Source of the DNA: Amphiura filiformis
Lineage: Eukaryota; Echinodermata; Ophiuroidea; Amphilepidida; Amphiuridae
Assembly: GCF_039555335.1 (NCBI RefSeq)
Contig: NW_027305508.1
Span: 372,001-436,000, forward strand
Direction of reading: 5' to 3'
DNA length: 64,000 nucleotides
In this document: piece after piece, positions 17,339 through 62,000 of the stretch
Layout of the letters: the number at the start of each line of letters is the position of its first letter
Numbering within the stretch: the stretch's first letter is position 1
Notes under the pieces: model-generated
What the model saw: only the letters and a program-made list of their open reading frames with translations
The model's database searches: none
Told to the model about the DNA's origin: nothing
Program-made: the position numbers and the translations under genes

Positions 17339-17339
17339 T

Positions 17340-17397
<58 letters not shown>

Positions 17398-17901: not shown

Positions 17902-17972
17902 GGCCTTCAATAGCTCAATCGGTTAGAGCGCTCTTGATATGCAGTTAACGAGGCGGGTTCGAATCAATCCAA
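17902..17972 (+). pseudogene. tRNA-like cassette, unit 8
   Basis: Matches unit 1, with the shortest T-run in the array (six Ts). Confidence 0.7.
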
Positions 17973-19824: not shown

Positions 19825-19860
<36 letters not shown>

Positions 19861-19861
19861 T

Positions 19862-19916
<55 letters not shown>

Positions 19917-21339: not shown

Positions 21340-22283
21340 GTTGTTAGGCAGATTAGCAATGATAGCAGCCCTCTTAACATGCAGGCGGTAGACTAGATGT
21401 CTAGCAATGTGTTCAGTGCAAGCATGCAGATTGGGATAGCAGGTGAAGTGGGTAGGGTCAAGGATGAGGTGGGTAAGAGATGCAGATGACGCTGATATCT
21501 TTTCCCAGCTTCCTGGATATAAGCCCTCACACACAGTCTCCAATTGCTTGAGGAATGGATCTCTCTGTTGGTGAAGTTCAGAACAGCAGACAAGGAAGTG
21601 CTCCCTGGTTTCTGCTGCTTTGCCACACAGTAGGCACATGGGGTCGATGCTGTATTGGTTGAACTTTGCTCGGTTGCCTTGTAGATTGTATGTACTACCA
21701 GTCAGGAGTTTTGCTTTAATGGAAGCTCTATAAACATCTCTCTGGTTTGGCTCAACTGTTTCCCATGCTGGGTGTGTCTTGTCAATTTCACATCCATCAA
21801 TGTTGAGATATTTTAGGGATGATTTCCCTACTGCATCATCCTTTAGCTTACTGTTCCAAAAGGAGAGCACAGGAGAGTTGATGAGGCTTTTCCATGCTGC
21901 TTTTGATGGAGGATTTACAAGCAGGTCATGTGCACTTGGAAGATCATATTTGATGAGTAGTTTGCACACAATCGTGAACCAACTTTTTTTTTTTTGTCCT
22001 TCATCGCTAGTTGTCTTTCTGCGATGTCACTTTCTAGGGAAGGAGAGGATATCGTCATCAAGAACAGAGAAAGTTGGTTTAGCTCAATCCTGGCTCTCAC
22101 TGGTAGGGCTCCCAGAAGTAGATAAACTGCGGCGTCTGCTGTTTTATCAGGTAGATGTTGAATTTGCTTGAGGATCTTCTTCTGGAAGGATGTCAAAATT
22201 TTAACATCACTTTCAGTGAGGTGCAGTATCTCAAGACCATAGAGGTACCTGGGCTCCACATATATGTATGTATCAACTTCCAA
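21340..22283 (-). pseudogene. LINE ORF2 C-terminal part with zinc knuckle
   Basis: Two overlapping frames continue the RT. The first (22283 to about 21990) reads through LYGLEILHLTESDVKILTSF, the post-RT thumb region. A slip in a T-run moves to the second frame (21969 downward), which carries CLLCGKAAETREHFLVCC, the C-x2-C-x7-H-x4-C zf-RVT knuckle typical of LINE ORF2 tails. The open frame runs on past the junction into satellite DNA, so its last 20 or so codons (after NLPNNYN) are not LINE-derived. Confidence 0.8.
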
Positions 22284-23227
22284 GATATTTTTGGGTTAAC
22301 ACCATTCAGTCCATGTAGGCCAGCCCCCATGAGGGCATATGTAGTGCGTCTGCCTGTCAATGTTCTTGCTTGAATGACTGACTTGTTTGACAAGTGAATG
22401 CTTCTTTCAACACCAAGGTGCATACCACTCTCTGCCACATTCACATTGTCATCGTTCAGGGACCATGGCTTGAATTCACTCCAGAAGGAGAAAGGGAGCT
22501 TTGATTTAACAGGAATTACCAGACTCTTCTGTGGATGGAGGATATATCTTTCTTTTTGTGAGTAGATGGCAGCCTCATCAAGCATGTCTTGGAGTTCAAT
22601 CATATTGTTAGATGCCAGGACGACGTCGTCGGCACAAGTTGGTGCTCCAACATAATATTGGCCAATTCTGGCCCCATATCTCTTCCCTTCAAGACGCTTG
22701 AGAAGAGGGTCTACATAGCATTTGTAAAGTTCAGTTGATGTTACTCTCCCTTGATGCACGCCTTGAGCGAGCCCAAAGTAGCCAGAAAGTTCACCTTTCC
22801 ATTTCACTTGGCTTGTAGCTCCCTCATACCAATGCTTGATGATGCTCCAGACCTCTGGTTGAATTTCCTGAAGATGTAGTTTTCTAAGGAGTGATGAGTG
22901 GTTTACGACATCGAAGGCTTTTCTTGCATCCAGTGTCGCAATGAATAGATCTTTCTTGTTGTCTCTAGCTTCATTTGTCAATTCTGATACAAGTAGTGCA
23001 GCAGACAGTGAAGATGTATTTGCTGTGAAGCCTCTCTGAAGCTGGCTGTAGTTTGGTTCTAGGATGGGTCTCATACGGGCAAGAAGCACATTCTCAAAGA
23101 CTTTTCCGATTGTGTTGGTTAGTGTAATACCACGGTAATTCTCTTGGAGGAAGCGGTTCTTATCCTTCTTTGGTATGGGTATGACAACTCCTTCTTTGAA
23201 GTCTTTGGGTACTTGTCTACTGGACAT
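22193..23227 (-). pseudogene. LINE reverse transcriptase fragment
   Basis: An open frame of 344 codons with non-LTR RT blocks in order: IPIPKK and ENYRGITLTNTIGKVFE (about residues 17-45), motif A as TLDARKAFD (98-106), motif B as GVHQG (156-160), and the catalytic box as CADDVV (198-203), where most families have Y/F-ADD. The frame actually opens upstream of this Met: codons for HGIQAEHIKKAGVAVLHPLA precede it, linked by another frameshift to KTPDG, the usual GPDG block. After HTYMW the correct frame shifts by one and continues in the next fragment. No endonuclease domain is present. I cannot assign a clade from this. The element is not functional. Confidence 0.85.
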
Positions 23228-23483
23228 GATGATATTAAATAAGTGAGCCAGTGGGTGTAGTACTGCAACACCAGCTTTCTTGATGTGTTCTGCCTGGATC
23301 CCATGCCGTCTGGGGTCTTACCAATAATGATGATGAAAAATCAATGTTGATGATCATTATATATGCCACTTTGTTAATTAGACCCACATGCACATTTTGT
23401 TGGTGATTTCCTTGCCCTAAATAACGTACATAGGCCTATACGTGTAAATACAGTATAGGCCTAGGCTAGGCATTTTACTTAAG

Positions 23484-27694: not shown

Positions 27695-28707
27695 TCACCG
27701 CCAGTTGCACAGGACACGTTTGTAAAACTTGCGTATCTTGATCATGGTAGCTGCATACAGAAACGGATTAATGCAGGAGTTGAGGTAAATCACATAGGAG
27801 AGTTGGTCACGATGGTATGCAGTATTACACTGGGGACAAAAGGTGGCGATGAGAGCGTACAATACAAATGGCAGTGTGCAGATGTTGACAACCAATACAA
27901 TAGCACCAAGTACTATGGCTGCCTTCTTGTAGCGCTTGTTTGGATCAGCGTCATACCTTGGTATAGATGCTCCATGAGCCATTGGTACTGAAGTGCTACC
28001 ACTTGGTCCTGCAGCAGAACTACTTGAACTTGGATTCGCATTCTGAGATGCCATACTGGTATTGCTCCTAGGATGTACCATTCGTTGTCGCAATTTTTGT
28101 ATCAGCTGAACAAAAAATGCAATACTGAATGATTCAATCGCAAGGAGTGGACCAAATATTTCTACAATGAACTTCATAAGTGCAAAAACCATGTTATGAT
28201 TTGGCGGTGAGCGGCAATCTTGGCTGAAGTCATAGTAATCATGTAAACCAGGAGGTATCAGCATATCAAACAACAGCGTTTCGATGGTTCCCAGTAGAAT
28301 CCCATAGAGCCAAATCCCACCGATGATACACATTATGTGCTTTCTGGATTGGATCCTCAGATACTTGGGATACTCTCTGGACAGTAGCAGAAATCGATCC
28401 ATGCTTATTGCTACAGTTGTTACCAATCCAGCACTGATAAACAGATTAATCAGAAAATTGATCAGCATACATCCGTACTTGCCATATGGCCAAATTTTCA
28501 AGGCAAGTTGAGGGAAATGGAAAATTTGAACCAGGCCTATCCCAAGGTCAGCGCATGAGAGGTTCAAAATCAATAAATTACCCGGTTTCTGTCGCAGAGG
28601 TGTTACTTTGAGGAAAGCAGCTATTGTAGCCATGTTGCCAATGAGAGTCATGATGATTATAATGCTGATACTATATAGAGAATGTGTAGGCTACTACCCA
28701 GTTCCAT
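27695..28707 (-). pseudogene. Rhodopsin-family GPCR, copy 1, broken in TM1
   Basis: Intronless class A GPCR closely related to copy 2. From an internal Met at 28651 it is open for 318 codons. Visible marks are N in TM1 (GNMA), NLSCAD in TM2, Cys at the start of TM3, DRF in place of DRY, GGIW in TM4, a second extracellular-loop Cys (DCRSPP), a Ser-rich third intracellular loop, NICTLPF in TM6 and NPFLY in TM7. The start equivalent to copy 2 is at 28705-28707 (MELGSS is retained). However, 14 nt replace 18 nt just before ATTATAATC, a 4-nt deletion that shifts the frame and gives a stop within about 16 codons. Starting at 28651 would lose the extracellular N-terminus and half of TM1. It is either a recent pseudogene or an assembly error. 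Confidence 0.85.
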
Positions 28708-37073: not shown

Positions 37074-38084
37074 TCACCGCGAGTTGCACAGGACACGTTT
37101 GTAAAACTTGCGTATCTTGATCATGGTAGCCGCATACAGAAATGGATTAATGCAGGAGTTGAGATACATTACATAAGCCAGTTGGTCACGATGGTAGGCT
37201 TTATTACACTGGGTACAAAAAGGGGTGATGAAGGCATACAGTACAAATGGCAATGTGCAGATGTTGACAACCAATACAATAGCACCAAGTACTATGGCTG
37301 CCTTCTTGTAGCGCTTGTTGGGATCAGCGTCAGGCCTAGGTATAGCTGCTCCATGAGCCATTGGTCCTGTAGAGCTACCACTTGGTCCTGCAGCAGACCT
37401 ACTTGAACTTGGATTTTGAGATGCCATACTGGTGTTGCTCATGGGGTGCACCATTGGTTGTCGCAATTTTCGTATCAGCCGAACAAAAAAAGCAACACTG
37501 AATGATTCAACTGCAAGGAGTGGACCAATCATTTGTGTAAAGAACTTCACCAATGCAAACACCAGGTTGTGATTTGGTGGTGAGCGGCAATTTTTGCTGA
37601 AGTCAAAGTAATCATGAAAACCAGGTGGTGTCAGTTTATCCCAAAAGAGTACATCGACGATTCCCATCAGAATACCATAGAGCCAAATCCCACCGATGAT
37701 ACAAATTATGCGCTTTCTGGATTGGATCCTCAGATACTTCGGATACTCTCTGGACAGAAGCAGAAATCGATCCATGCTTATTGCTACGATTGTTACCAAT
37801 CCAGCAGTGAGAAACAGATTAATCATAAAATTGATCAGCATACATCCAGATTTGCCATATGGCCACATTTTCAAGGCAAGTTGAGGGAAATGGAAAATTT
37901 CAACCAGGCCTATCCCAAGGTCAGCGCATGCGAGGTTCAGAATCAATAAATAACCTGGTTTCTGTTGTAGAAGTGTTACTTTGAGGAAAGCAGCTATTGT
38001 GGCCATGTTGCCAATGAGAGTCGTGATGATTATAATGCCAATAGCAACTAAATACAGAATGTGTTGGCTACTACCCAGTTCCAT
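37074..38084 (-). CDS. Intact orphan-type rhodopsin-family GPCR (copy 2)
   Basis: A 336-residue, intronless class A GPCR, presumably at the plasma membrane. TM1 about 9-33 (N26 in IGNMA), TM2 46-68 (D55 in LACAD), TM3 80-104 starting with C81, DRF 105-107, TM4 126-148 (W134), second-loop Cys 166 (disulfide partner of C81), TM5 176-203, Ser/Pro-rich third loop 204-258, TM6 262-287 (NICTLP 274-279), TM7 301-320 (NPFLY 313-317), then a short basic helix-8 region (IRKFYKR). Counting from C81 as 3.25, position 3.32 is Ile, not Asp, so an amine ligand is unlikely. The usual toggle Trp of CWxP is Thr. The start Met is conserved in copy 1. The ligand is unknown. An acidic ERY/DRY-type G-protein contact is largely kept (D-R), so coupling is plausible. 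Confidence 0.9.
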   Translation of the reverse strand: MELGSSQHILYLVAIGIIIITTLIGNMATIAAFLKVTLLQQKPGYLLILNLACADLGIGLVEIFHFPQLALKMWPYGKSGCMLINFMINLFLTAGLVTIVAISMDRFLLLSREYPKYLRIQSRKRIICIIGGIWLYGILMGIVDVLFWDKLTPPGFHDYFDFSKNCRSPPNHNLVFALVKFFTQMIGPLLAVESFSVAFFVRLIRKLRQPMVHPMSNTSMASQNPSSSRSAAGPSGSSTGPMAHGAAIPRPDADPNKRYKKAAIVLGAIVLVVNICTLPFVLYAFITPFCTQCNKAYHRDQLAYVMYLNSCINPFLYAATMIKIRKFYKRVLCNSR

Positions 38085-38299
38085 TTTAAGATGATACCTG
38101 ACTATTATATTAAAAAGGTATTCTCGAAGTGGGAAATCTGCTAACCCGGGCTGCTAACTATTGGAGCTTTCCACAAACAGGTAGCTCTTTTCAAAATGTT
38201 TTGTTTTGAATGTGCTAACAGTTGCGACTGATGTGCTCCACAAAGTATTTGCTGCTATAAAATACTGGTCTTTGAGGTTGATTACAAGCTTTGCAACCC

Positions 38300-38960
38300 G
38301 CAGAGCCAATCTAAAACAATCTGCGTTACTGTTATGACCAATAGAAGAAGTAGATGTGCAAGCTGTGTCAACCTCTAAATAATTGTAGATCTCGTCAAAG
38401 TTCACAGATGTTGATGCTTCTCTGTGGTGATTACCACCACAAACCTGTCATGCCATGCCTATCAACGTAGTAAGATATATAGATGATTCAGCCGCAACAT
38501 TTGATCAAAAGCTGAAGTGGTCCCCATATGCATGCTTCGTTCCAAGAATTTTGATTGGGTAGATTTAAAAAAATCCTGAGCCAATCAGACAACTTATGCA
38601 TGCTCAATAGCAGAAATCAGCAAATAAGGGAAATTAGTGTTGTGAGAAATATACGGCATGCAGATTAGATCACCTGTATTAATGTTTAATATTAGAAATA
38701 TTTGTTAATATTCTTTACCACTTTGGTTGAAACAAAATGTGACCATGACCAAGAATAAAAAAACAGTCAATTTAGGAATTTCCTTGAAATCTTATTTTTA
38801 CTTTCAATAATAATATTTGTACTTTGATTTATTACTGTATATTTATTTATACTTCTTGTTCACAATGTATCTTTGTAAATGCAGGATCTACTTGGAAACC
38901 AGTGTTTTGACATTGAAGGAGTTTAATACCCTGGGTATAAGAAAGTTGAAATAAATAAAT
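38300..38960. repeat. Upstream flank of GPCR copy 2, duplicated
   Basis: Resembles 28740-29545 and the split copy at 40620-40913 plus 44455-45000. A short (AAAT)n run lies at 38951-38975. No coding sequence. Confidence 0.65.
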
Positions 38961-39559
38961 AAATAAATAAATAATCTAAAACGTCAAAAATATCCCTTTG
39001 TTGCATCGAATTCCTTTGTTATATTTACACAATGTGTTGACAAATAAGAATTGTATATAAAATTAGAAACAAAATTTTGTTGAAAAAGTTGATGAAGAGC
39101 AACATCTCCTCAGCGGTACAGAAAGGTCAGTAATTACATGACTGCAATGTCACTCACCCTTCCACTCACTCAGTTTACTCAGTTTAAGAAGAGACTAAAT
39201 ATGCTGAGGCTTTTTCCACCTAGTAAACTATCCTAACGATGCTTATGTTTTAACTGTGCTAATTCCACTCCAATTGTCTTGACTTGCCTATTGCCACAAT
39301 GACAACCAGCAACTAATTCTGCACTCTGTCGATCGTGACAGAGGTCAACCCTTTTAATGTGTTATGACCATCCCATACGCCACATGTGGATACATAGTAT
39401 TATGAACATATTCTATTTTTGATATTAATATTAATTTATATTAATATCCGGCATATATTATGGACCAAGTTGCCGAGGAGAAACTGATTTACCAGTTGAA
39501 CCAAAGACCATTTTTGGACCATTATGTACATAAGGACCAGTGATTACACTGACAAAATT

Positions 39560-40052: not shown

Positions 40053-40380
40053 TTACACAGGACACGTTTGTAAAACTTGCGTATCTTGATCATGATACAG
40101 AAACGGATTAATGCAGGAGTTGAGGTAAATCACATAGGAGAGTTGGTCACGATGGTATGCAGTATTACACTGGGGGCAAAAGGTGGCAACGAGAGCATAC
40201 AATACAAATGGCAGTGTGCAGATGTTGACAACCAATACGATAGCACCAAGTACTATGGCTGCCTTCTTGTAGCGCTTGTTGGGATCAGCGTCAGCCCTAG
40301 GTATAGCTGCTCCATGAGCCATTGGTACAGCAGAGCTACCACTTGGTCCTGTAGCAGAACTACTTGAAAAATTAATAAAC
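40053..40380 (-). pseudogene. GPCR copy 3, C-terminal remnant
   Basis: Encodes only the end of the third intracellular loop, TM6 (NICTLPFVLYAL) and most of TM7 (YLNSCINPFLY). An 8-nt deletion relative to copy 1 after FLY shifts the frame and removes helix 8. Upstream of about 40380 the homology stops abruptly and is replaced by sequence related to 32650-32865. TM1-TM5 are absent. Confidence 0.9.
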
Positions 40381-40610
40381 AAATTTCTTGGGCCAAACAA
40401 TTTTTTTTGTTACGTTGACGAAAAAATTTGGGCCAAAAAAACCCGTTTTGGGGATTTTCTCCAAAAATGAGCATTTTGGCCCAAATTGGATCTCACAGAT
40501 GAATTCACCAAGTCATTTCCATTCTAAAAATGTATATTTTTATATTCTTTAGACTAATAATTTAGCAGTTATGAGGCCCGAAAGTTTTCATAATTCCAGG
40601 GTTCAGACCA
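40380..40610. mobile_element. TE fragment replacing the GPCR copy 3 5' part
   Basis: Resembles 32650-32865: both contain GAAAAAAT-TGGG, a TCC-AAAA-TGAGCATT block and CATAATTCCAGGGTT in the same order. It marks the breakpoint that removed the first two thirds of GPCR copy 3. Confidence 0.55.
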
Positions 40611-41203: not shown

Positions 41204-41698
41204 TCAAAAATCAACACTCCATTTACGGAAGTGTTGAGATAGTTTCCCTTTTTTCAAAGCAATTTGATACTCAATCTTACGTTTGATAATGATAAAGGAT
41301 TTAAGACCACTAAACGAGGGAGAGACATTTTGGAATTTACATTTGTAAATAAAAAATTTGTAGCATAAAAATAAGACTGTCCAAAAGGGTTCATCCGGTA
41401 CACCAAACATTACATCAATCTGGTTGAAATTGTAGTCAGAATGCAGTTTCATATTAATAAAATTTTGAAGAGCCTGCCAAATGGGATTTACTTTTTCACA
41501 ATCACAAAATATATGTAAAATGGTCTCAGGATATTTATCACATAAGGAACATAGAGGTGAATCCTTTCTCCCAATTTTATGAAGGAACTTATTAAGTGCA
41601 ATAGCCCGATGAAAAACTTTGAAATAAAATGCTCTTAATTGTGTCTCAATGGTACAAGAAAAATTACGAGAGTGAATATTTTCCCACTCCCAATCCAT
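41204..41698 (-). pseudogene. LINE C-terminal zinc-knuckle fragment
   Basis: Contains LCSLCDKYPETILHIFCDC, a C-x2-C-x8-H-x3-C zf-RVT knuckle, followed by the WQALQNFI helix that usually follows it. It ends in a stop at 41204. The region 40914-41203 is the presumed 3' untranslated part with an A-rich tail. Confidence 0.8.
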
Positions 41699-42032
41699 AG
41701 CCTCCTCATTACTATTATCATTAAGGTTAGCAACAACTTTAAACTGTTGCGATTTGGTAGTTCACAGCATCTTGCGAATGGTAGTGAGCTTTGGCAAAAA
41801 TTGCATTGCTCAATTCATAGTGAGCTTGTAGAAGAATCTTAATATCACAGATATACTTTTGTAGGTCCTGTGGTTCTTGAGTTATGTTGTAAAAAGGGCT
41901 GAAACAACAACACTTTTGTAAAACGTAGATAACTCATTAGCAGTAATAAATTAATCAAGTTTTGAAAGTATTTGATTTGTAGAATGAACTTTTGCAAAAG
42001 ATCAAAATGTTATTTTTCAATAATATATTGAT

Positions 42033-43260
42033 TTAGATAATGAAAATCGATTTTTCGGTTGCTTCGACCAACAATACCTCGTCTACCCTTAAGCAATTCA
42101 TCCCAATACAGTTGAGCTTTATCAGGAGGTGATTTGTCAACCATAATTTGGTAACAATAACGAGGGACTTTAGGTGCCAACAGAATATTGCTTGAAAATA
42201 TATTTTAAAAATCACAATCTTCAACAGTGGCATCATCAAGCAATTCCCTTTCAACAATACTATTAACCAATGTATTGTATTTCCTCCTGTCTCTATAAGG
42301 GATATCAAATTCAATAATAAGATCATCAAAAGACTTCAGAACTGGAGTGGGAGTGTCAGTATAGAGCAAATCAGTAATATTATAAATTCCTCTTTCATAC
42401 CAGGCTGCATAGTAGAAATACTGTTTTGATTTGGTGCGGACATGTTTATTATACCAAATTCCCCCTGTAATTTCAATTGCTTCAATTCAAAGCCAAGATC
42501 TTGAGCTGCCATATCCCTAAAATAATACCAAGATCGGGCGAATCAGAAATTTGAGTATTCTTGAGCTGTGTAAGAACTTTTTCTGGGGCATAAGCTTTCC
42601 AAAGAAGATTTGTATCTGAATGGAAGCATTTAAGGGCAGATAATTCAATTGATTTCCATGTACAAAAATAATTATCATCCAATAAATGTTTAACCCATGT
42701 CATTTTTTGTGACTGGGCAAAAGTAAACGGGTCAACCATTTTGAGTCCGCCTGATCCATAACCAAGGCATAAGATTGACCTTTTAACCCGATCATTTCCA
42801 TCATTCCAGATAAATTTATAAAAAATAGAATTTAGTTTCTTAAAAAACAGATTAGGAACTTTGATACACAGCACTGAAAAAAAAGATATAAAAATTGAGG
42901 CAAAATGAGGGATTTAATAACAGAAATTTTACCAATAAGGGATAAATTCCTGGCCCTCCAGCAGTTTAAAGTTTTTTCGATAAGGTCTAATTTTGGTTTG
43001 TAATTCAATTCATATAAAGATTTTATATCCAATGAGAATGTAATACCTAAACATTTAAATTTGTCATTTTTCCATTGCAATCCTTTATCTCGGAATGGAA
43101 AAGTAGCAGCACCCTTTTTTGAACCAATCCAAATTGCTTCAGATTTAAGTAAATTAATTTTACAACCTGAACATGTTGCGAAAATGTCTAGAGTTGAAAA
43201 TAAGTTGTCAAATGATTCAAGAGCACCATCAATGAAGCAGGTGGTATCATCAGCTAACAT
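42033..43260 (-). pseudogene. LINE RT palm/thumb fragments
   Basis: Frame 43260-42832 contains MLADDTTCF, the catalytic box as LADD, followed by CSGCKINLLKSEAIWIGS, typical of the block after the catalytic Asp pair. Frames 42874-42482 and 42329-42033 continue the connection region (NSIFYKFIWNDG, YGSGGLKMVDP). At least two frame changes separate them. Confidence 0.8.
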
Positions 43261-43550
43261 AGATAATTTAAGCTCCTCACCATCAATTGAATTCCACCGA
43301 TATTGGGATTACCCCTAATGGCAATCATGAGCACCTCCATAATAAACAAAAAGATGTAAGGGGAGATTGGGCACCCTTGAAATATCCCTCTGCACATATC
43401 AATAGAACTTGTAAGGAACCCATTGTTAGTAACATAAGATTTCCTGCAAAGTGCAAGAATAAAATGTTTTAATCCAATTCAGAAAATTATCGCCAAAGTT
43501 AAAATGCTCAAGGACTGCAGGCAAATCATTTACTTCAGTGTATTCAATTA

Positions 43551-45261: not shown

Positions 45262-46369
45262 TTAAAGCCATATTATTACATTTGCTGAGGAAGACGCCCT
45301 CAATATTTTTCAAAATTCTGTTTTTACATAATTATAATGTACTTTATTTTAAAAACTAACCTAACCTACCCTGCAAAAATCAAGACCGTCTAGGTTAGAG
45401 TGGCAAGTTTTCCGTGATTTATAACACCGAATTCTGTGATTTTTCGTGCGTGGTTTTAAATACTAAATTCCGTGATTTTCTGTGATGTAATTTCAATTCT
45501 GTGTTCACAATCGGGGTAAAAAGAAGTTGTAATACTTGCATTAACTTTTTAGTTGTTTTAAGCCTGATATCTTTAGTTGGATATGACGTCCACAGTATTG
45601 GCGATTGTTTGTTTTGAGTTGAATTGGCAACCTGTTTAGCATCACTTGGCTTGGATTTTGTGTGAGACCATCTTTCACTACTCAATGGACTCTGTCTCTT
45701 TATAACACCGAATTCCGTGATTATCCGTGCATGGTTTTAAATACTAAATTCCGTGATTTTGCGTGATGTAATTTCAATTCTGTGTTCACAATCGGGGTAA
45801 ATAGAAGTTTAATACTTGCATTAACTTTTTAGTTGTTTTAAGCCTGATATCTTTGACGACGGACTTCATTTTCATTATTTTAACCTCACATCTCATTAGT
45901 TTTTCTTCATTTTTTTTTTTCTTAAGGAAAAAACATGTTTTCTGCGAATTTCTGTGTTTTCCGTTTTTTTTCTTAAATTCCGTGAATTTGTCCGTTTTTC
46001 CGTGACACAGAAAACTTGCCACTCTAGTCTAGGTGCTGTAGTTTAGTCACAATCCGAGATTTTGAATAAAACGCAGGAACCGTTGTTTTATTATTACGAT
46101 GTAAATATTAGTCAAACACGTACTCGATGTTCATAACAGTACGTACATGTAGTCATGTACATGGCGACACACATAAAGGATCGTGTCGTAGCTTAACCGA
46201 ATGGGTGACACGCATTGATGTCATCGGCGCTGGTAATAAATTCCAATTTTCTTTGCTCAGTTGTCCAGCTTAAAATTAAAAGGGGACATATCTGACAGTA
46301 AAAGCTAACATTTTATGGAAAAGAAATACTAATTAATTTTTTATGGAAATGTTATAATATGGCTTTAAG
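45262..46369. mobile_element. Outer TIR element carrying a nested MITE
   Basis: TTAAAGCCATATTATTACA at 45262 matches the complement of the sequence ending TATAATATGGCTTTAA at about 46368. The GPCR flank homology stops at the left end. The hAT-like MITE at 45396-46026 lies within it. Confidence 0.55.
45396..46026. mobile_element. hAT-like MITE containing an ERI2 exon fragment
   Basis: The ends TAGAGTGGCAAGTTTTC and their complement are flanked by an exact 8-bp duplication GTCTAGGT (45388-45395 and 46027-46034). Inside are two direct copies of a roughly 155-bp MITE segment (about 45417-45574 and 45700-45856). Between them is a 129-bp insert (45572-45700) matching ERI2 last-exon sequence 49307-49435 with 7 differences. 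A third part ends with repeated TTCCGTG motifs. No transposase is encoded. Confidence 0.85.
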
Positions 46370-46539
46370 AACAGATGCAAAATGCTGATCCTTTTCCCCC
46401 CCGTAAAGTATCCAAACAATACTTAGATTTTAACGTGGCTGTGCACTCTCGACGTTGTTTCTGTCAAGAAATTGAGCTTTTTTGACACGTATGTGCCTTG
46501 TAATGTTTTTTACAAGCAAAGAAAATCCAAATTTGTTAA

Positions 46540-47195
46540 GGGCTGGGGTATGAACGTTTGGACAGTATTTATTTTGGGACATTAGAGCACATCAGACATA
46601 TCAATTGCATTCTGAATACGAAGAATGTCCTTCTGATATCAAATAATTTTGATTTTTGAAATTCGCAATTTAATACACATTTTATGGCAAATCATTAAAA
46701 TTGATATTTTGATATTTAACAGTACTCAAGTAAACTTTACAAATCTGATGATTTATACTTAAAGTGTATGTAGGTGGGATGAAAAGTCGACGATCAATTG
46801 AAAATTTTGACCTTTCGTATTGGAGATATGGATTTTTTCCCCAAAACACCAACAAAAAATAGGTCTTTTTAGGAAAAAAATCCATATCTTCAATATGAAA
46901 GGTCAAAATTTTCAATTGACCGTCGGCCTTTCCTCCCAGCTACATACACTTTAAGAATATATCATTAGATTTATATAATTTACTTCGAGGACTGTTTTTT
47001 ATCAAAAATTTGAAAAATACTAAATTTTTATAATTTGTCATAAAATTTGTATTATATTGTGATTTTCAAAAATGAAAATTATTTGATATCAGAAAGACAT
47101 GCTTCAGATTCAGAATGCAATTCGATAGGTCTGAGGTGCTCTCATGTCCCTCAAAAAATACTGTCGAAACGCAATAAACGCTCATTCTAGATCCC
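46540..47195. mobile_element. Foldback MITE flanked by TTAA, copy 1
   Basis: A 656-bp near-palindromic element flanked by TTAA on both sides (46536-46539, 47196-47199), with ends GGGCTGGGG and the complement of GGGATCTAGAATGAGCG. The arms meet near 46850, around CACCAACAAAAAATAGG. TTAA targets are typical of piggyBac-type elements, though the GGG start differs from the usual CCC. Class assignment is tentative. Confidence 0.7.
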
Positions 47196-47199
47196 TTAA

Positions 47200-48355
47200 A
47201 CCCAACAGCATTTTTTCATGGATTTTATTTCACTCAAGTTTACAATTTAAAAAGGAAGAAAATCTTTGTTGAACCAGCAGGGTACACACATGCTACAATG
47301 CATAGTGTTGCAAAGTTGTGCAATTTGGTAATGCACAGATACGCTACGCCTATTGAAGTGACGCTTATCTGCATGCCAAGCGCAACCTATGGCAGCACTG
47401 ATTTCACAAAAACTTAGTGGTCAAATGGCTCTATTTTAGCTGATAAAATGCAGGCCTTTTTCAAGTTTTTGTGTTCGATTTAAATATCAAGCTATGAATG
47501 GATTTCGGTCAAACTTCTCAAGGGGCTGTGGATTTATCCAATGTTCACGTAATGTGAGGTAGAAATACGAGAGTTGTCACATTCTCCTGCGAGCTTTGAT
47601 CAAAGTGCAACATATGTGTCTACTTATAACTTCAATTACAGCATCTATAGGTAAGCAATATGCTCATCGTAAAAAGCCAACATCAGCTCCGGAAGCAGTT
47701 TTCTCATTTTTTGGTCTATTTCCGATTTTATGCATCATTTTGTATAGATTAGCAGTGTGAATTTTAAGAAGTTAATTTTGTTGCATTGTGTTAAAATCTC
47801 AAAAAATATAAGGCCAATAGCAAACAAATGTAGTCTCAAGATTAAGGAAAAAAAAATTGTTTTGTCAAAACAGAAAAATGTCTCCAATTTTGATGCAAAT
47901 GGTCTCAAAATGTTCGAGTTATTATAACAATTTCAATAAGGAATAATTTGTAACATCCGAGATGCTTTGTTACCTAGTAACATACTGAAATGGGTCAATT
48001 CCCAGTTAAGTCCTATTGGTTGTGACCTATTTTGCTGTGTTTCCTTGGTTACCAGATAGGGCAAACTATTTGCTTGATATTACAAGATGAAAAAGTTGAG
48101 ACAGTTCTGTTTTGACCCATGTGTAGCCCAAATGTTGACCTTCAACCCTTTTGCGCATAACCTTGGAAAGATAAGGCATAGATATGTCAAACTATTAACT
48201 GAATCCTTATGACCTGAGGAATATTTTGAAATTAGTGTCAATAAAATTTGAGCAACTTTGAAATTTCACCCCTATATAAACTTTGACCTTGGAATTCTGG
48301 GATTGGCTAACACAAATGTCCAACATTCTTTGACTTCACAGCAAGCAATTCAACC
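47200..48355. other. No recognised gene; region downstream of ERI2
   Basis: No frame above 60 codons of interest and no repeat recognised. It could include ERI2 3' untranslated sequence near its right edge. Confidence 0.5.
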
Positions 48356-48831: not shown

Positions 48832-50053
48832 TCAACACGGGTGTAGATCTCGGTAATTGGATATTGAAGTTTGTTTGTATTTCAACACAGGTGTGCTGGA
48901 CACAGCAAGTTTTTCTTTAATCACCACGCTTTCCCATTTGAAATATCCGCAACCTTGCTTGCTCCGTCGATTTGTCGAATCATGTAGAGCAAACTCGCTA
49001 CTTCTACCGCCTCTCCTGTTTGGACAACTGTAGAACCCTCTCCCTTGGTTCGGTCCCGGTGACACAACATTGTTTTTCTTTGCCCGACGTCCACACCCAC
49101 ACATGGGTGGGGTAATGTTCCCTTGCAGCATTCCGGATGACAAGGTAGGACTATAGGTTGGTGTTCTTAGTACCTTTGAAGCTACAGTTGTTGAACTAGG
49201 TGGTGTTTTCAGAGTACCATTGGTATTAAAAGGGGATTTTCTTGTCATTGGGGCAGGGCCAATTGGAGTTTTGAATTCTGATCGTTATGCGGTTGGAATT
49301 GTTGATTTTAGTTGGATATGACGTCCACAGTATTGGCGATTGTTTATTTTGAGTTGAATTGGCAACCTGTTTAGCATCACTTGGCTTGGATATTGTGTGC
49401 GACCATTTTTCACTACTCAAAGGACTTGGTCTCTTCACACCTACTCTACCATTGCTTTGTCCATCAGTGTTGCCATCTTTAACACCAGACCTTAAACATG
49501 TTTGGACTGGTACAAGTGATTGGGCACTTACAGTATTGCCAGATTTATCTCCCAAATTAGGACACAGTGCATCTGTTACACCCAATGCAACTTTGGGTGT
49601 CATTACGCTTGCTATACCAGGAACACTCTTAACACTAGACTGTTCTGAATTGGGCTCACTATGTCCCCATTTATCTTCCCAAGCAAGTGCTTGTGTTGCT
49701 GTTACAAAGTCATCGTCATCATCATCTGAGTTACAATATCTTTCTTCCTCGCCATCCTCCTCATGCTGGGTTGATGCAGGAGCGATGTAAATATCCTCAC
49801 TTTGTCTTGCATCTGAAATGGTTGCAGTTGCCGTCCAAACCATCTCCTGCTGGTACGATGCGACATTACATACAGGAGCAGTTATGATGACATTGTCAAA
49901 ATGCCCCTTTGTTGCCTTGGAATCTGTCACTGGTGGATATTGAGCAAAACCTTGCATATGAGTTGCTTGATTTATTGCTTGAGTTTGAAGGACATGAGCG
50001 CTTGCTTGATTTGACTCAATTGCTTTGGTTGGCACAGGACGTTTCTGGACAGT
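48832..50053 (-). CDS. ERI2: ERI2 last exon: linker and GRF zinc finger, with a frameshift
   Basis: Starts after TTTTACAG at 50054 with TVQKRPVPTK and is open to about 49285. The correct downstream frame (RSEFKTPIGPAPMTRKSPF) is one base off, and the switch lies near 49280-49290 at CATAACG. No GT-AG intron fits there. The linker has an acidic run (residues EEDGEEERYCNSDDDDDD, about 49715-49765). The GRF finger occupies about 48925-49110. The stop is at 48832-48834. The stretch 49307-49435 is shared with the MITE at 45396. The human linker is not conserved, so this part gives little homology support beyond the finger. Confidence 0.85.
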
Positions 50054-53000
50054 CTGTAAAACAATCATAAAAACATTTTTTGTAATGAAAGTATTAGATC
50101 CAGATTGTTCTATTCAGATTATTGATTAATATTATTGTTAATTAACTCTTTCACACACAAAAAGCTACAATTGCAATGATTATTTGTCAAAAATATATTA
50201 ATTTTATTATACTGAGAAGCATTTTTTATACTCTATTTACAATACAAAAACATTTGATATAAAAGTAAAGTTGACAAATAATGCACAAAATATTAAAAAC
50301 ACATTGGATTCATTCAAAATTTCAATGACATCCTATGAACAAAACATAAACATCTCAAAAGAAATAAGTCCCCCTCTGAACATGTCGTCATAACATCGTA
50401 AAGTTTCGTTTTGTACCAACAAAACTAACTTTGAAATAATTATATGACTGTTTACTAAGTGCTGTGTGAAAATGAGAGATGTCCATGACTTCAGGGCTGA
50501 ATGAGCCTAAATTGAAGACAAAAAGTGCCCTTTCCAAAAGTCACAAAGTAGGCCTATGCTTGTTAACTGCAATGCGTATTGGGACAAGGAATGGAACTGA
50601 CCATCTTACAACTCACTGTGCTAAACTCTGCACCTAGGGGATTTGCATGGCTGAATGATCAAGAATCGATACACATTACAGTAAATGTTCACTTGGTGAG
50701 GATTTTAAACTGCACTCAAACACATGGGGTTTTCCATTAGTAACAAGCCATGAATCAACTTTTGTGACAAGCATAGGCCTACTTTGTGACTTTTGGAAAG
50801 GGCAGTTTTTGCCTTCAATTTAGGCTCATTCAGCCCTGAAGTCATGGAAATCTCTCATTTTCACACAACACTTAGTAAACAGTCATATAATTATTTCAAA
50901 GTTAGTTTTGTTGGTACAAATGAAACCTTACGATGTTATGACGACATGTTCAGAGGGGGACTTATTTCTTTTGAGGTGTTTATTTCATTAGGAGAGCAGG
51001 TCAAAATGTCTGATAATGTTTGTAAAAAACTTGAGAGTTTTCAACATTTCACACTTTAGTTTCAGGAAGGGACAGCCTCTTAACGAAGGCGTTTTCGTGT
51101 AGGACATCATCAAACTTCTGATCTGTTCCCTAACCATGCAACATAAATGTACAAGATTAATTCCCATCTAGTAAACACCTTTGTTTCTTTTGCATTCAGG
51201 TATAGGTCATTTAATTTGTGAGGATGAGTACCGTTTAGGCAAAATGAATACCTATCAAAACTCTTGTGTAATAATTACAAATAAATGTTTTCGGGGCAGG
51301 GGTTATATATAACTACAAGTATAAAACTGTTTAAAAACTTGCATTATCGATCCCACAACAGCAACTATCTTTAATAGACTTCCAATGCATTTAACAAATT
51401 GTTGAATTAAATTTAATTTGCATATGACGTTTCCTACACGTATATACATACATGTCTCTTGGTATGCTAGCCTTGATGTAACCAAGCTTGTTCTACAAAA
51501 ATAGGTGACCAGCTGCAGTCCCGGGACTTGCAAAAAGCAGCATCAAAATCACAAAAGCCTCTCATTGTATCGGGAACGGGTGTCAAATTCAGACTCTGAC
51601 AGCATATTACAATACTTTCAAAATAAAATCCTGAAAAAATTGTACTTGAATTTGTGATGTTGGGTGTTCATGTTGTTACTATCTACTTAAATCTTCCATC
51701 TTCTAAAAGAAGACTTGAAATTTCATTATAAGTTTTATCCTAGTCATTGTCTCCATACCGGGTATTCTTGCAATCATTCATGGTCTCACATCAGTAGGGT
51801 ATCCATGCAACACTGCAATGTCTCAGATGGGGTATCTTTTTAAACAGAAGTAGTCTCAACAAGGATATTGTTTTACCCATTTTTTGCTCTCATATGGGGT
51901 CACCCTCAGAATCACTTGAACTCACTTGGTTACCCAGACACTTGTAAAAGTGACACCTGTATCATTCAATAGTTCACTAATCATGCCATTCCTCAAACGA
52001 CAATGTCCTCCCTCCATATGTAACAAAGCATTTTTACTGAAAATGTTTATGCTAACAACACATCAATCTCTACATTCATACATAAACATTAAAAATAGAG
52101 CTAACATGTTACATTAAATAAACATATGAAGAGCTTAGTTTCAAAACCCCTTACATCCACTTGCCTAATTTTGAGAACACATCAAAAAATCATCTGATAT
52201 ATGGGGGTTTGCAACAAAAGCAGTTTTTGGTGGGATGCTTGGGTAGGATGAGCATCCCACCAAAAACTGCTTTTGTTGAAAACCCCATATATCAGTGATT
52301 TTTTGATGATTTTTGATGTGTTCTCAAAAATGGGCATGTGGATGTAAGGGGTTTTGAAACTAAGCTCTTCATATACATACATTGTACAAGCACAATTTTT
52401 CAATGTTGATAAAATATATTCTACATCTACAGCAAACACCAGAAAAGGTCCTATAGTCCAGTCACTGTTATTATTGTGCCAACCATTCTATGCTTGACAG
52501 ACATTGGACTATTCCAGTTGAAATCCATACACCCCCTATGGAAGACATCACTTTAATCTTCTAAACAGGGAGTGTAAATTTCAAATGGGGATACCTGAAT
52601 AGGTGACTCCATTTGAAATATACACCCCCTATGTGGGAGATTAAGGTCATGTCTCCCTAGGATGTATGGAGTTCAACTGGAATAGCCCAATGTTCTAATA
52701 GGTACAACATAATAAGAATGAGGTATTTCTCAATCTTCAATTAATCTCGATTATATTAATCCACATAAACAATAAAATGGGCTCTATTTGATTACATGTA
52801 TCTGCCATCTTACTCAACTCAACACAAAACATAACATGCATATTTGTGAATCACATTTCTGTGTCTCAGTAGAGATAAGACTAAGTTTTTTGAAGAAAAA
52901 TAAAACGGACACTAAAAATAAACTTTTCGATGTTTTCAGTAGCAGCCTAGCACACACAAATTGTTACATAATAGACTACATTGTACGCCAAAATTTGTTT

Positions 53001-56000
53001 GATACACTTACATAACTACTGTAACTTGCCACAACACATAATTTCAAGTACGTAGTTATCATAAATACATAACATCTTAAATACACACTTGCTATATTTG
53101 ATTTTTACAATAAACTTGAGACATTATTGCACAATGTTCCTACATTTTATCTGGACCTTTGCCACAGATTTATATTGCACAATTACAAATCATCACTATG
53201 CTTTACAGAAGGTCGCTGAAAACAATGTCGCACAACCTTAAGCCGCTAGCCATATAGTACAATGTGCATTTCTTCTCTTTCAATTTACAATTAATTATGA
53301 TAAAAACATGTCTCCCAGGTACTTGAGACCAGAGGTTCTCAATTAGTGGTCCTGCTGACCAATTGTGCTTGGCCCTTTCCTTTATACAGCTCTGAAATAT
53401 AAGGTTCACAGCACCACGGTGTAACAGTATTTGGCCCTCAGACACAAATCTTTTGATATGATTCTGGCCCTCTGTGGCCCATGATCAAATATAATTGACA
53501 ACTCCTGCTTTAGAACTTGATGTAGCTATATAAGTGGCACTAACATTTGCAATTCAAAAAATTGTCTTCATGCCATGTAGCTAATTAAATATGGTGCAAT
53601 TTGCTATGGATGTGTGCTCCCGAGAATGTTGCCCTTCATGGTGACATGTGTTTAACAACACAGTTGCAACCCTTTTAGACAAAGAATCTTGTGTTCAAGT
53701 CAAGTGAGCAACACAATCAGCGGAAATACATAACACAAATGTCTTATACGGCAGTGATGGCAATCTAAATGAATGAAATTATTATCTCGCTATCTCATAA
53801 CAGCAGCGTAACCTACCCTTTGCATGGTCCGTGTAATCTTCATGACACATCCATCGCATATCATACGCCATGCTAACTTTGCAGTGTTTCTAGAGTCATC
53901 CAGTCCTGTATGAGAAAAAGAATATACTTTATAATAACTTTTAAATTTTCATGAAGGAGTGAGCCTCAGACTTACTTTACTTGGAAAAGTGTGCATGCAG
54001 CATGCATAAAATTGTTATTTTAATGCTAAAATTCTAAGGGGGTGAAAAGTGCATGTGAAAATTTGCTATTTTATTGCTATAATTTCAAGGAGGTTGACTG
54101 TGTTATAATATTCCAATTTCCTTTTTTTTATAACTTTTTTATTCGTATTACTTTTTTCCCTTCTTAAAATCTCCATAAATAGTTAACCATACATGCGATT
54201 AAAATACAATAAATGTGGTAGGAAATAACCCTCTCAAACTTCAAACTTTTATTTGCAACTAAAATAAAGATTATATCACATCAAATACAAAACCAATAGC
54301 ATTCCAAATTAAATTGAGTTTCTCAGTGGTACTCTGTATCATTATGTGGGTTGAAGCAGCATTCCCATATCACATCTAGAAAAGATGTGTTGAACCCTAA
54401 ATAACAGTACTGAAATTAGATCAATCTTTGTCCAAAAGTCCAAATACCATGACTACTTTTTTCAATAACTATATCTAAAATTTACAGCATATAATAAGTC
54501 CAAATACCATGACTATTTTTTTCAATAACTATATCTTCTACAATTTACAGCATATAAACATTGAAGCAAAAATTTGATTGTCAAAATGATTATTTTTCCT
54601 ACTTCCAACTGAATCAGGTTATAAAATATTGATATGGTATCGCATCAATTGTTCCAAGTAAAATCGTACTTTGTGCCTTTTGTCATTTTATGCCATGATC
54701 ATTGATTGCGCTATTCCATTTAAAATCCACACTATTCCTGGGGAAGATTTTGGAAATATCTTCCACAAGGGAGTATGAATTTCAAATGGAATGAACACAT
54801 TAGGCAGCTCCATTTGAATTTCATACACCCTCTGAGAAAGATTCAACCCGAATCTTCCACAAAGGGAGGGCGAGTTTCAAATGGAGCTGCTAATGTGTTC
54901 ATTCCATTTGAAATTCATACTCCCCCTGTGGAATACATTTCCAAAATCTTCCACAGGGGTAGTGTGGATTTTAAATGGAATAGCCCAATTTATGAACAGT
55001 TGATCACTCACCTGAATGCTGCCTACCACTGAACTCAATGCCTACATCTTGCAATGCTCCATGTAATCCTTGAGGTTTGCGCTGGTAATAATTCTACAAT
55101 GGTATAAGAAAAATATATTTCAGTTAAACCCAGCTTTGCTAACACTTTCATGCATAGATATTATAACCCCATGAGAACTACCTGCCGATTGGCCAAAATG
55201 AATACTGTGTCCAATTTTGAACCAATCAAGGGGGGTATTAATAAGATCATCTGCAAATGCAAGTTTGACCATAAATAGTTTAAAGCCTGGTCATAATTGG
55301 CAATTGAGATGAGCATTTCAAGTTATCAACCAATCAGAAATGCTGTTAGATGACCAGCAGTGAGTGTCCAGGGGGTTAAAAGAAAGGTGCACAAAGGTGT
55401 AGGTGGTCAGACAATCAGCCCATATCTGGCCTTCCTTTAAGGACACTTGAGAAAAATAATGGTCCATTTTGGTACACTCACAAACCACATGTATCACGTC
55501 ACTTTTCAGAAATGCCAGCCGGGTTAATCAGAAAGATAAGACTCTTATGGTTAATTTTAACCCGGCTGACACCTTTGTCCAAAAATGTTGCACGAAAACC
55601 TTAACTAGAGCAGATAGACCGATGTGGCCTCTACTTACTATAAGTATAAAAGGCATGTGAGTTTCATTTGAGATACTAAACAGGACCGGTTGAAGTTTTT
55701 CTTCATAATGTAATAACATGTAATAGGTAAATTTAAAAGTAAATGAAATAGTGCAAAGATGACCAGTGTTCAGATGCTGGCATCATTGGCCTACAGAGCC
55801 TACACGAGCATCATGATATCCCACAACTTTGGGCCCTTACCCAAGTTGAGGAAAACGAACGGTTTGTAAAAAAAACAGACCACTGACAAACCTTTGCAAG
55901 TTGGCGTTTCCAACCAAAACCAAAGCAAAGGCTAATTGGGCTTACAAGTACACCTAGTTCGAAAGTGGCTCGAGTGGAGAAACAAGAAAGCAGCCAAAGA

Positions 56001-59000
56001 AGACAAGAGTTTTATCAATGTGCCTCATGACCAAGGATGTGATCAATTATTCACTAAGTCCATTTGTATGCGTCTGCGAGGCCAGAAAGCAAAATGGCAA
56101 GGAGTATCCTGGGGCTACAACATACTAGATGATCACTAGTATTCAGAAGTATTTCAATATCAACCACATAAATTACAAACTGCTAAGAGACCCATCCTTT
56201 AAAGAACTGCAGCTCACACTGGATGCCAAAATGAAGAGAAAGTCTCAAGATGGCGTAAATAAACCACCTAAACAAGCTCAACCAATATCCACCAAGAAAG
56301 AAGATCAATGGGAGAATGGGAAGCTGGGATCAGACAACCCCAAGCAACTGCTCAATACGATGGTATATCTTTGTGGCCTCCAGGATAGTGTAAGAGGGAG
56401 GTCAGAATTACAATCCATGACATATGGCCAAGTCCAACTTGCATGGATAGCAAAGGAAATTGTGTATTAAGGTACCACCAAAGCGTTGCCAGCAAAACCA
56501 ATCAAGGTGGACTCAAGCACAGTCATCTGAAACCAAAGAACATCATGGCATACCCAGTCAAGCCCCTTGACTGTGTAAGCAATGTCCTGATTTATGCTAT
56601 GACTGACAACCAGCCTCTCATCAATCTTGTAAAGCAGCGACCGCAGCGTCAACTTCACTTCCTAAGACACATCCTGAAGTATACCTGGTCTCCATGTACC
56701 CATACCTAGTGTATGGGTACATGGTATAACCATGTATTCAAACAGGTACGGATAGAGCTGTCAAAGAGTGTATATTTCAAAACATGATAACTGCACCAGT
56801 TATAAAAATTCCCACACACATACCACTGTTAAAATGCACTCAAAGTCCTTATTCCATATCTGAAAAATATGATCCCCAATTTGTACTTACTTTATTGATA
56901 AAAGTCTAAATATCCACATGACAAATTCAGCCGTACATGTCCATTGTATATGTTCACAACATGACCCAAAATCATAACCTTTCAGACCTTAGACACATGC
57001 ACAAGGCCTTGATAGCACTGCCATGTGCAGTCAATAGCCCAATTCATGTTGAACAAGAGACTGGTTGAGAGTCCACATGTTCATTCACCTGCACATGTCA
57101 GCACATGCTTCAACTGCTGATGTGTCATATTTAGCAATGTCATGATATCAACCTCATAGTCACAGTCTCTGTTCTGTGGGGTATTGGTAGAATAACACAT
57201 GTCTTTATGAAAGGTCAAAAGTTAGGGATTGTTTTGTCAGACATTTTGAGAGCTAGATTTGATCAACACCATTTGAAGCATGGTGTAGCTTACAAGCAGG
57301 ACACATAATTTCAGGATATTGACTACAAATTTGGACCAATAAATTTCCAGAGAGATAATACAACCAAGGAAGCTTACTTCAAAGATGGTTAGGGCAACAG
57401 TGACATGGTAAGTGAAATAGTTAGGGAAGAATACCTTGGTGTACATTTGAAATGTAATTTCTGGTCTTTGTACATGGACTTCATGTCTCCCTATTCCACA
57501 CATATAATCCTGAAGATGCCTGTGGAGGAGCCCTGTACAAGATATGTTCTACAGCATATGTTCCATCACATAGCAAAAGGAGACCAGGGCACAAAGGACA
57601 ATTTATCCGACTTATAGATGCTGTTGGGGGATACTAACGATTTACAACCAGATGCTATTGCCTCACTAGCTATTTGGATGGTGGTGCTTGGATATGAAAT
57701 GAATGATATGTATACACCTTCCACGTGACTTTTACCTGCCCGAAATAATTCTGGGGGCAATGTAAACATTTTGCAAATCGAAGGTGTTACTACATGTATA
57801 CCTTGTATGTTCCAAGAGCAATGCATATTTTTTGTGGTTACTAATGAACAAATCTATAATCTTGTTGATTCAAATTGCTATTGTATTGTAAGTTTAATGA
57901 GCTTGCTTGCTATATGTTTGTACTGTTTTTTAGTAAATAGTTTGTTTTTTGGTAATATATTTGTCAGGTAGTATTTTTCTAACTTTTGTATGGGGGTCAA
58001 CATTTTGCAGGCTTATTGTCTTTCATTGTACCTCTTCCATCTTATTGGATTTTGTTATTTTTCTATTTGTATGTTTTTTAATGATGGAAATAAAATAACT
58101 AGGAACTAGGAACCATTATCAATGCGGGTGGCTTCACCTGTTGCCTTCTCTTACACTCATAAGGTAAACCTCTTACACTCATAAGGTAAAATATACCATT
58201 TTTCATCCCCAATGTGGCAGTGAAGTCAACACGTTGAAGCAGCAGCTGTTTAGCTTGCACATCTATGTGATGTCTTTAGGCATGTGAGTGTGTACACCAG
58301 CACTTTGAGCGATTGCTATTGATTTGAGGCTGTGCAACAATGAAATGCACACTGACGTCACCACCACATGAGGGTGAAAAATAGTACAGCAAGGTGTTAC
58401 TATATACCTTATATGTTGCTCTTAGGTCTATCCAACTTGTCAACGCAGGCGGCTTCACCAGTTGCTTTCTCCTACACTCATAATGTAAACATATAGCAAG
58501 GTCCCAATCTGTTGTGAAAGTTATAATGAAATACAATTTTATCTTCCTAATTTTATTAAATAAATTGCACAAAAAAGTTTTGTTACACTTTATTACGAAT
58601 TGACCACGCAAAAAGCCAATACACACATACTCACATCCCTCAAAGCGCGTCATGGGTCGATAAGCTCCCAAGCCCCTAAGGGCAGTGCAAGTTGACCTCA
58701 ATGCTGAGTGTGACAGACAACAGGCCCAGGCTGATCCCCTGCTCTTCATGAAAAGGACTGCAACTTTTACATGTCCAGATATTGCTCATCTGGTACATGG
58801 GACCACCATTTTATGTGACTCTCCGTACCACAGCACGCTATGCACCCACTGTGGTGTCTGCACGTTTAGGGCCACAATGAGTGGGACAGAGGAGAAATTA
58901 GAAAGGTCATGATCTTGCAACCTTCCGATCGATAACCATGCGCACCAAACTACACAACCACCCTCTACCTCTAGGCTAATACTGTAGTGGCTCGCCATTG

Positions 59001-62000
59001 CCTTCTACAAGGTGGACATAGGATAAGCAACATTTCCCTTCTCTCAGTTCATCCGCCACAGGACTGCCGTTTACTTTGGAGGTCAACTTGACTGAAGACA
59101 AAAATAAAAGGGTGGGGTGTATCTAGAAAGTGGCTTACCTGACCATGTTACAAATGTACACAGCTTCTTGCTATCATCTTGAGTTGTGTTGTAGGCTATA
59201 CCTTTTTCTACTTCCAGTTTTCTTAACCATCTAGAGAACTGACTTAAGCATACACGTACAGGAGGACCAGATTCAACCTGAGCCTGGGTGAAAATAAAAT
59301 GAGTATAAAATTAGTTAAATCTTATCCATATCTGCACACATACATACACCTCAACATAAGTGCCATCAAATGAGGACTTAACATTTGAACCTATATGGCC
59401 ATGTGTCATAAACCAATCATTCGTGTTACATAGTAAAAAAGTGATGCAGGTCTCATTTGAAGTGGTTCATCCTCCTGAGCTTTTTGACACCTTTTTTTTA
59501 TGAAAATCGGTTAAAAATTGAGAACGGGCAAAAAAAATCACAAACTGGGGGGGGGTGTTTAAACCCCCTCTTTTTTTACATTTACAATCATTCTTAGCAA
59601 GCATTAGTCTTTTAAAATGGCCTTATCTATTTATTTACTTGCTTTAGAGGTCTGAGTTCATTTAGACATTTCTTTACCAGATTCAAATTTTTAATGGGGG
59701 TTTTAGATCAAATTTACGATATGAATCCCTCCCCCTAATCCACAACCACCCTTAGCACATTTCATTTCAAACATCATAAAAAAATAATTAAAAATAATTT
59801 TAACACAGGATATTACATGAGTAATATAGAATAAATTAGCCTCAATTTAAGACCTAAATGAATCTTCTAAGTAAAGGAATACTCAAGAGACAGTGTTTTG
59901 AAATCCATGTTGCACATCAAAATGGGTACCCCAGTATATGACGCCGGACCATATACATGTATAATTGTGGATACCAATTCCCAAAGTCAATCATTATACC
60001 ATGGACATGGACATAGAAGTGGCTATACTATGCTCAAAAACATTGTCAATTTATTGATGAAGCAGACTTTAGACTTACATTGCTCAAATATGACCAGGCA
60101 TTAGGCTATTCCAGTTGAAATCAACTACAAACCATGAAATGACATTAATCTCCCATACAGGGGGTGTAGATTTCAAATGGAGCCACCCATTCAGGTAATC
60201 CCATTTGAAATTCACACTCCCTGTTTGGAAGAATAAGGATATGTCTTCCAGGGGGTGCATGGATTTCAAATGGAATAGCCCTTTCATCCACATAGTCTAC
60301 TTTGCATTTTCACTGAAATTTGCAACTTTCTTACATGGTGTGTCCTGTGTAAACCCCCAAATGAGGGCAGCTCTGAATAGAACACCCACACCCCTACCCA
60401 TACACTGTGATGCCTATTCTCTCAACTTGAAGGAAGGCCATGCAGGTTGCGGCATTTTCAGCAGGATCAGAATCAGTGAACATTGGTACGAGCATATATG
60501 TGACACGATCTGGTCCATGGGGGGCAAATTTTTGGAAATTGAGTTACTCTAATTGAGTTACTCTAATTATTACATTATACATACAATAGGCTATCATTTA
60601 CTGAAAACACCAAAGGTCTAGTATACTTGTTTCTAAAGTTATGAAGTTTTTTCATGTCTATTTTCTTATGTATTTTATTGTTTTTTTACTCCATATTTTT
60701 ACCTTTATCTCAGTTTCAAATTCGCCGCCTTTGGCCCCCATGGACCAGATTGTGTCACATATAGCCCCATGATGGGGCAGTGGCACAGCGGTCAAAACTT
60801 CCGACTCATAATCATGATGTAGCTCAAAGTTGTGGGTTCAAATCCCCACAGCATCAACATGTTATGCACTTAGGCAAGTCTCTTCACTGCTACATCCTCT
60901 CCACATCCAGGTGTACAAATGGGTACTGGCTTTATTCAATGCTGGGAAGGATAACAGACTTGCTGTGGAGGAGGTGTAGTGATCCCCCTGCAGCAACATT
61001 ACATGGTGGAGTCTGGAACAATTGCTTAGAAAGAGAGATGGGCACTCCAACCTATGACCACAGGTTTGTCCCCTTTACCTTTTTTTATAGCATTTAATCT
61101 TTTTTTCTGCTATGCCAAATACGCCCTAACTCAACAAAACTTTAAAAGAAATGGGACTATTACACTTTTACAATGACATATGTCAGGCATTTTACCTGTG
61201 TTATTCCTGTGAATTCTGTGCAGAAGTCACTCAGTATAGGGTTTTCTTCAGGCAAAACATAGGTGTGGAATTCTGACTCTACCTCACCAGTGCTAGTGTT
61301 TAGTAGCACAGCAGGAAACTCAACTGAAAAGGAAAAACGAAAGAATTGTTATGAATAGTTCATAGTAAAAATCAGCATATTTTCAATTTCAAATCCGCCT
61401 CCCCATCAGTTTGTCAACCTTAAGGCCGCAAAAAATTTTTTGTACCCACAGGCTTTAATATGTAACTGTTTGTTATCACAAATATGAGAAACCACAAAAC
61501 TGCTCCATATACATTTCAAATCTTACATTTTCATTTTCAGCATATTCAAAGCTCCACATTAAGTGAAAACCCAATGTCAATACGACATTTGGTTACAAAG
61601 TTACAACAATTAGAACACCGGTACATTGAAAAGAAAGAAACAGAGGAAATCAAGTTTAAAGTTAGAGTACTTTGTGGAACCTAATAGTGTGTGACATACT
61701 TACTTATTTCCTGGCCTACATTCTTCTTGTCTTTCCAGCATGTGGACTCAAAATCTATCACTACCAGATAGGAAAACATTTGACCTTTATTGGAAGAAAG
61801 AAAAAAAAAGTATTAACAAGATTTTAAGGGATCTAAAATGAGCGTTTATTGCGTTTCGACAGTATTTTTTGTGGGACATGAGAGCACCTCAGACCTATCG
61901 AATTGCATTCTGAATACGAAGCATGTCTTTCTGATATCAAATAATTTTCATTTTTTGAAAATCACAATATAATACAAATTTTATGACAAATTATAAAAAT

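Follow-up and report, generated by a model that had tools for sequence, protein, structure and literature searches.

The locus described here raises the question of how a 129-bp sequence shared by an ERI2 exon and a nearby hAT-like MITE came to stand in both, which of the two was its source, and how it was copied. The analysis covered one stretch of Amphiura filiformis DNA (hereafter the window; 64 kb), and all positions are given within it. The initial annotation had reported a match at 122 of 129 positions between 45572-45700 and 49307-49435, 3.6 kb apart, and this was confirmed using BLASTN within the 64-kb window (122/129 identical, ungapped, same orientation, E = 9e-54). The copy in the MITE is the captured segment (45572-45700, read on the plus strand), and the copy in ERI2 is the putative donor (49307-49435, minus strand), which comprises 43 codons in the frame of the linker exon. 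The distance between them is 3606 bp. Identity is 94.6% with a length ratio of 100% (BLASTN, not BLAT), and all seven differences (7/129) are substitutions. The next best ungapped site for the 129-bp segment in the window reached 55/129, and three shuffled windows gave 55-56; the parental copy of the insert is unique within the 64-kb window. Insert and ERI2 segment agree without a difference over stretches of 39 and 45 nt, so that small RNAs antisense to ERI2 would be possible in principle.

The MITE occupies 45396-46026 (631 bp with its insert). The terminal inverted repeats and exact 8-bp duplication previously assigned to it were both found: the two ends carry the sequence TAGAGTGGCAAGTTTTC at 45396-45412 (plus strand) and 46010-46026 (minus strand), identical at 17/17 positions, and are bordered by the exact 8-bp target-site duplication GTCTAGGT at 45388-45395 and 46027-46034 (8/8). 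In the sections of PMC3517528 drawn on here, the hAT superfamily is defined by an 8-bp target-site duplication and short terminal inverted repeats of 5-27 bp; the MITE has an 8-bp duplication and 17-bp repeats. The element resembles members of the Buster group such as Mar, as those sections describe them, in its short repeats and in a duplication fitting the consensus nnnTAnnn, a fit that comes from one insertion only and so counts for little. Its terminal repeat differs from that given there for Mar, CAG(G/A)GGTAGGC, and no transposase was linked to the MITE. A hAT domain was found neither in the scanned 10 of 19 ORFs of at least 115 aa nor in the two ERI2 ORFs. Beyond the two MITE ends no copy of the terminal 17-mer was found in the window, even allowing three mismatches, and no second copy of the MITE or of the insert was found in the 64 kb, which is a small sample.

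Sequence collections not aimed at animal genomes were also searched, so that a lack of matches in them carries little weight. In viral_contigs there was no match to the 17-mer of the ends, to a 20-mer from the interior or to a 25-mer from the insert, and three stretches that matched the ERI2 linker protein by pattern were not confirmed; phages and plasmids gave no match to the MITE. In genome_contigs the terminal 17-mer occurred in 12 bacterial or archaeal stretches with one match each, which were taken as chance matches. The window had no Rfam match at gathering thresholds.

The surroundings of the MITE are themselves repetitive. A second element (45262-46368), which has inverted ends of 22 nt and is bordered by TTAA, encloses it and in turn lies inside a repeat; a related copy of that repeat (38499-39254) lacks the second element and presents a paralogous empty site near 39180. 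Remains of reverse-transcriptase elements were seen at 22193-23317 (RVT_1), at 41204-41761 (zf-RVT) and, below cut-off, at 21271-22026 (zf-RVT); an ORF near the zf-RVT remains (42832-43308) had no Pfam match. Minus-strand frames for rhodopsin-family 7TM receptors lie at 27695-28690, 37074-38153 and 40053-40409, the last matching the profile end only. Positions 1-20000 hold eight AAATTTGATGT arrays at a spacing of about 2.5 kb, with an ATC microsatellite of variable length after each one, which suggests a tandem array of a 2.5-kb unit.

The placement of the insert between two direct copies of a MITE segment, as the initial annotation had it, was borne out. The copies, both on the plus strand, are R1 (45418-45574) and R2 (45699-45854); they agree at 149 of 157 positions (7 mismatches and one 1-nt gap). 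The edges of the insert overlap R1 by TTT (3 bases) and R2 by TT (2 bases). This microhomology, also noticed earlier, is real and modest: simulated random joins gave overlaps of at least 3 nt in 7.2% and of at least 2 nt in 20.5% of cases, and 2.5% of simulated pairs had one overlap of at least 3 nt and another of at least 2 nt, so the two edges are only mildly unusual. With insert and duplication subtracted, the MITE measures about 350 bp from the coordinates (348-349 bp depending on how the overlaps are treated). G+C content is 40% in the insert and 31-32% in the remaining MITE parts, a difference of little weight, as the G+C of the donor segment is reached by 24% of non-coding 129-bp windows.

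The donor gene, as far as identified, lies on the minus strand at 48835-61779, with exonuclease exon pieces from 61779 to 53817, a linker exon starting at 50053 and a frame for a GRF zinc finger extending to 48835. The protein joined from the exonuclease pieces matches the ERI2 structure 7n8v (PDB, E = 3.3e-60) and Pfam RNase_T (E = 1.5e-6), and the downstream frame carries the GRF finger (Pfam, E = 1.4e-11); on its predicted protein, the gene is ERI2. Upstream of the linker exon there are six introns, all bounded by GT and AG, which measure about 380 to 3760 nt. Inverted copies of a foldback-like element (46536-47200 and 62492-61823, 95.7% over 670 bp) bracket most of the gene. The copy at 46536 resembles its own reverse complement (81.8%, 46555-47171), and in both orientations it is matched by the other copy.

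The donor segment sits in one reading-frame stretch of the linker exon and spans no confident intron. The linker had no Pfam match above cut-off, and BLASTN of the 1160-bp donor context revealed no other similarity within the window. In the ERI2 frame the segment has a codon score of 0.09, compared with -0.05 to 0.33 for left-out stretches of the linker exon and -0.14 to 0.11 for those of the GRF frame. That score is higher than in 97% of the non-coding windows used for comparison (213, all stop-free, overlapping and hence not independent), and the other five frames of the segment all contain stops and score from -0.05 to -0.33. The segment thus scores as coding in the ERI2 frame, but its earlier description as a coding segment of ERI2 calls for the caution that its frame is not that of the GRF domain. 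The segment frame closes at the stop at 49226-49228. The GRF frame starts behind a TAA (49285-49287) that lies 19 bases past the segment. In this sequence one open frame therefore does not run through both linker and zinc finger, and a frame change between 49287 and 49226, or splicing, is required. Past the GRF domain, at about 48897-48850, the frame seems to change once more, if the frame beyond is coding at all; no splice donor was seen there between the two frames. Sequence error, real lesion and unusual splicing are indistinguishable as causes of these 3' frame changes, and the main conclusion is unaffected by any of them.

One way to join the linker and GRF frames in phase is a possible 163-nt intron, from a GT at 49440 to an AG ending at 49278, which would enclose the segment. 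Splice sites were scored using approximate frequencies. The 49440 donor site scored above the 95th and below the 99th percentile of background GTs, and with the fitting phase this would allow the segment to derive from spliced-out ERI2 intron RNA by RNA-templated insertion. Against such an origin, the 49278 acceptor scored -3.75 (50th-75th percentile of background AGs), below the 0.37 to 7.8 of the six confident ERI2 acceptors; the pair ranked fourth among phase-consistent pairs (the first, 49490/49015, would remove the start of the GRF finger); the candidate is short at 163 nt beside the other six introns; and the segment scores as coding. Despite its phase the intron was set aside for its weak acceptor and on account of the codon statistics, which speak for coding, and an origin from its RNA is considered extremely improbable.

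The direction of copying can be read from the flanks. Around the segment a duplication is present on the MITE side only, none being detected on the ERI2 side (BLASTN), and the insert edges are the edges of this MITE-only duplication to within the 2-3 nt of overlap. Together with the ERI2-like codon usage, the one-sided duplication supports copying from ERI2 into the MITE. Had the segment instead been native to the MITE and been copied into the ERI2 exon, each end of the transferred piece would have had to lie no more than 3 nt from an edge of a duplication internal to the MITE, the flanking duplication would have been left out of ERI2, and the codon usage would have fitted ERI2 all the same. 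The linker's lack of a Pfam match above cut-off and the length of 43 whole codons, the gain of which would leave the frame unshifted, speak for this reverse donation, which we nevertheless regard as very unlikely.

With ERI2 as the probable source, the preferred reading is that the locus is a single-copy Pack-TIR made in place by repair after the MITE had inserted, for which we estimate a probability of roughly 0.78. The anatomy of the locus was observed directly, as were the orientation, the identities and the edges; from these the course of events and the pathway of repair may be reconstructed as follows. A hAT-like MITE of about 350 bp would have inserted about 3 kb downstream of ERI2. Its DNA would later have broken, or a replication fork stalled within it. 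Repair synthesis, having reached the end of the 157-bp stretch, would have taken the ERI2 exon, 3.6 kb off, as its new template at TTT and copied 129 nt there. At TT it would then have returned to the beginning of the 157-bp stretch, upstream of its departure point, and recopied that stretch, leaving the order R-E-R. Error-prone DNA repair is the most likely source of the 129-base copy.

Several observations fit this reconstruction, among them the coding score of the segment and, with its small weight, the higher G+C of the insert. The donor is 3606 bp away in the same orientation, as expected of repair in place after MITE insertion. The coincidence of the insert edges with those of the MITE-only duplication was also counted for capture in place. 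Divergence between insert and donor (7/129) is like that between R1 and R2 (8/157; Fisher p = 1.0), which would be expected if a single event had made both. The same counts bear on an assembly artefact, for which it can be said that sequence errors could underlie both of the apparent frame changes in 3' ERI2 sequence; with 7 substitutions between insert and donor and 8 changes between R1 and R2, neither is a simple assembler duplicate, and an artefact is judged highly improbable.

The distribution of changes was considered as a possible footprint of error-prone synthesis around the return junction. Insert and R2 together show 15 differences, 10 of them within 75 bp around that junction (45657-45731); two of these 10 stand side by side, and a second such pair of neighbouring changes lies 30 bp further on. 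Around the departure junction a span of 81 bp shows no difference (p = 0.08). For windows of 50, 75, 80 and 100 bp the cluster gave unadjusted p values of 0.16, 0.02, 0.03 and 0.035, post hoc; this is a hint of low-fidelity synthesis, but it seems unlikely that the event left such a footprint.

The initial annotation had proposed host-sequence capture of Pack-TYPE behaviour. That a hAT-like MITE captured a segment of ERI2 is supported; capture tied to transposition is unnecessary, given the 3.6-kb distance and shared orientation, and transposition after capture is not needed either. Capture might still have taken place elsewhere or during transposition (strict Pack-TYPE, or switching followed by transposition), the element then landing or hopping locally beside ERI2. 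The intact terminal repeats and target-site duplication mean that it could have moved after capture, and hAT elements are given to local hopping. Unless the hop was local, however, only chance would have placed the element 3.6 kb from the donor and in matching orientation, and one copy only was found in the window, although 64 kb is a small sample. According to the parts of Tan et al. 2021 (PMC8277862) used here, multicopy Pack-TIRs were always distal in frogs and alligators. Movement after capture is accordingly held to be unlikely, and formation in place is preferred.

The same parts of Tan et al. 2021 (PMC8277862) supply the closest comparison. They report 370 Pack-TIRs across 100 animal genomes; hAT elements hold 208 of the 370, and only four were multicopy. 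Pack-TIRs are defined there by 100-5000 bp lying between the ends of one TIR element, with a parent at least 90% identical and a length ratio of 80-120%, a unique best parental copy in the genome, no TEs in the parent's flanking 100 bp, and no retrocopy, in which a gene of several exons would stand without its introns. Here 129 bp lie inside 17/17 terminal repeats with an 8/8 duplication, at 94.6% identity and a ratio of 100%; as the segment spans no confident intron, it cannot reveal intron loss. Of 281 unique Pack-TIRs, 160 lay less than 15 kb from the parent (the majority of those less than 5 kb), and 190 had microhomology (median 2 bp) at one breakpoint at least; single-copy cases were ascribed to transposition-independent gap filling. 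The locus is like those single-copy cases in being an apparent hAT TIR element with a copy of nearby sequence of more than 100 bp and more than 90% identity, short microhomology and internal breakpoints. In typical cases the breakpoints were separated by a median 4.6% of the element, whereas here they overlap by about 157 bp (45% of the roughly 350-bp element), a difference counted against the preferred reading, and a duplication flanks the insert.

Other systems, as far as the cited sections describe them, are partly similar. Plant Pack-TYPE and Pack-MULE elements (PMC8903248, PMC13317346) are likewise non-autonomous TIR elements with host coding sequence, but they shuffle coding DNA genome-wide, and the present MITE is known from one copy in a 64-kb window. 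Turmoil-1 of C. elegans (PMC2572040) is, similarly, an animal DNA transposon with host protein-coding sequence; there the host sequences form part of the inverted terminal repeats, while the ERI2 segment lies inside the element. Microhomology-mediated break-induced replication and template switching (PMC2621351, PMC7954356) share discontinuous copying, a nearby template and short microhomology with this locus, which differs in being an old event inside a transposon whose pathway we infer.

The locus is a clear example of an event type already catalogued in animals. Donor, recipient, two switch points and flanking duplication are all legible within one 4-kb stretch, and, even with no outgroup, the flanking duplication suggests which way the copying went. 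In the position of its return switch, far upstream of the departure point, the locus differs from what is typical in the sections of the animal catalogue cited above (PMC8277862). If the footprint around the return junction were true, and were polarised using relatives, the locus could be read as a fossil of low-fidelity repair by template switching within a transposon.
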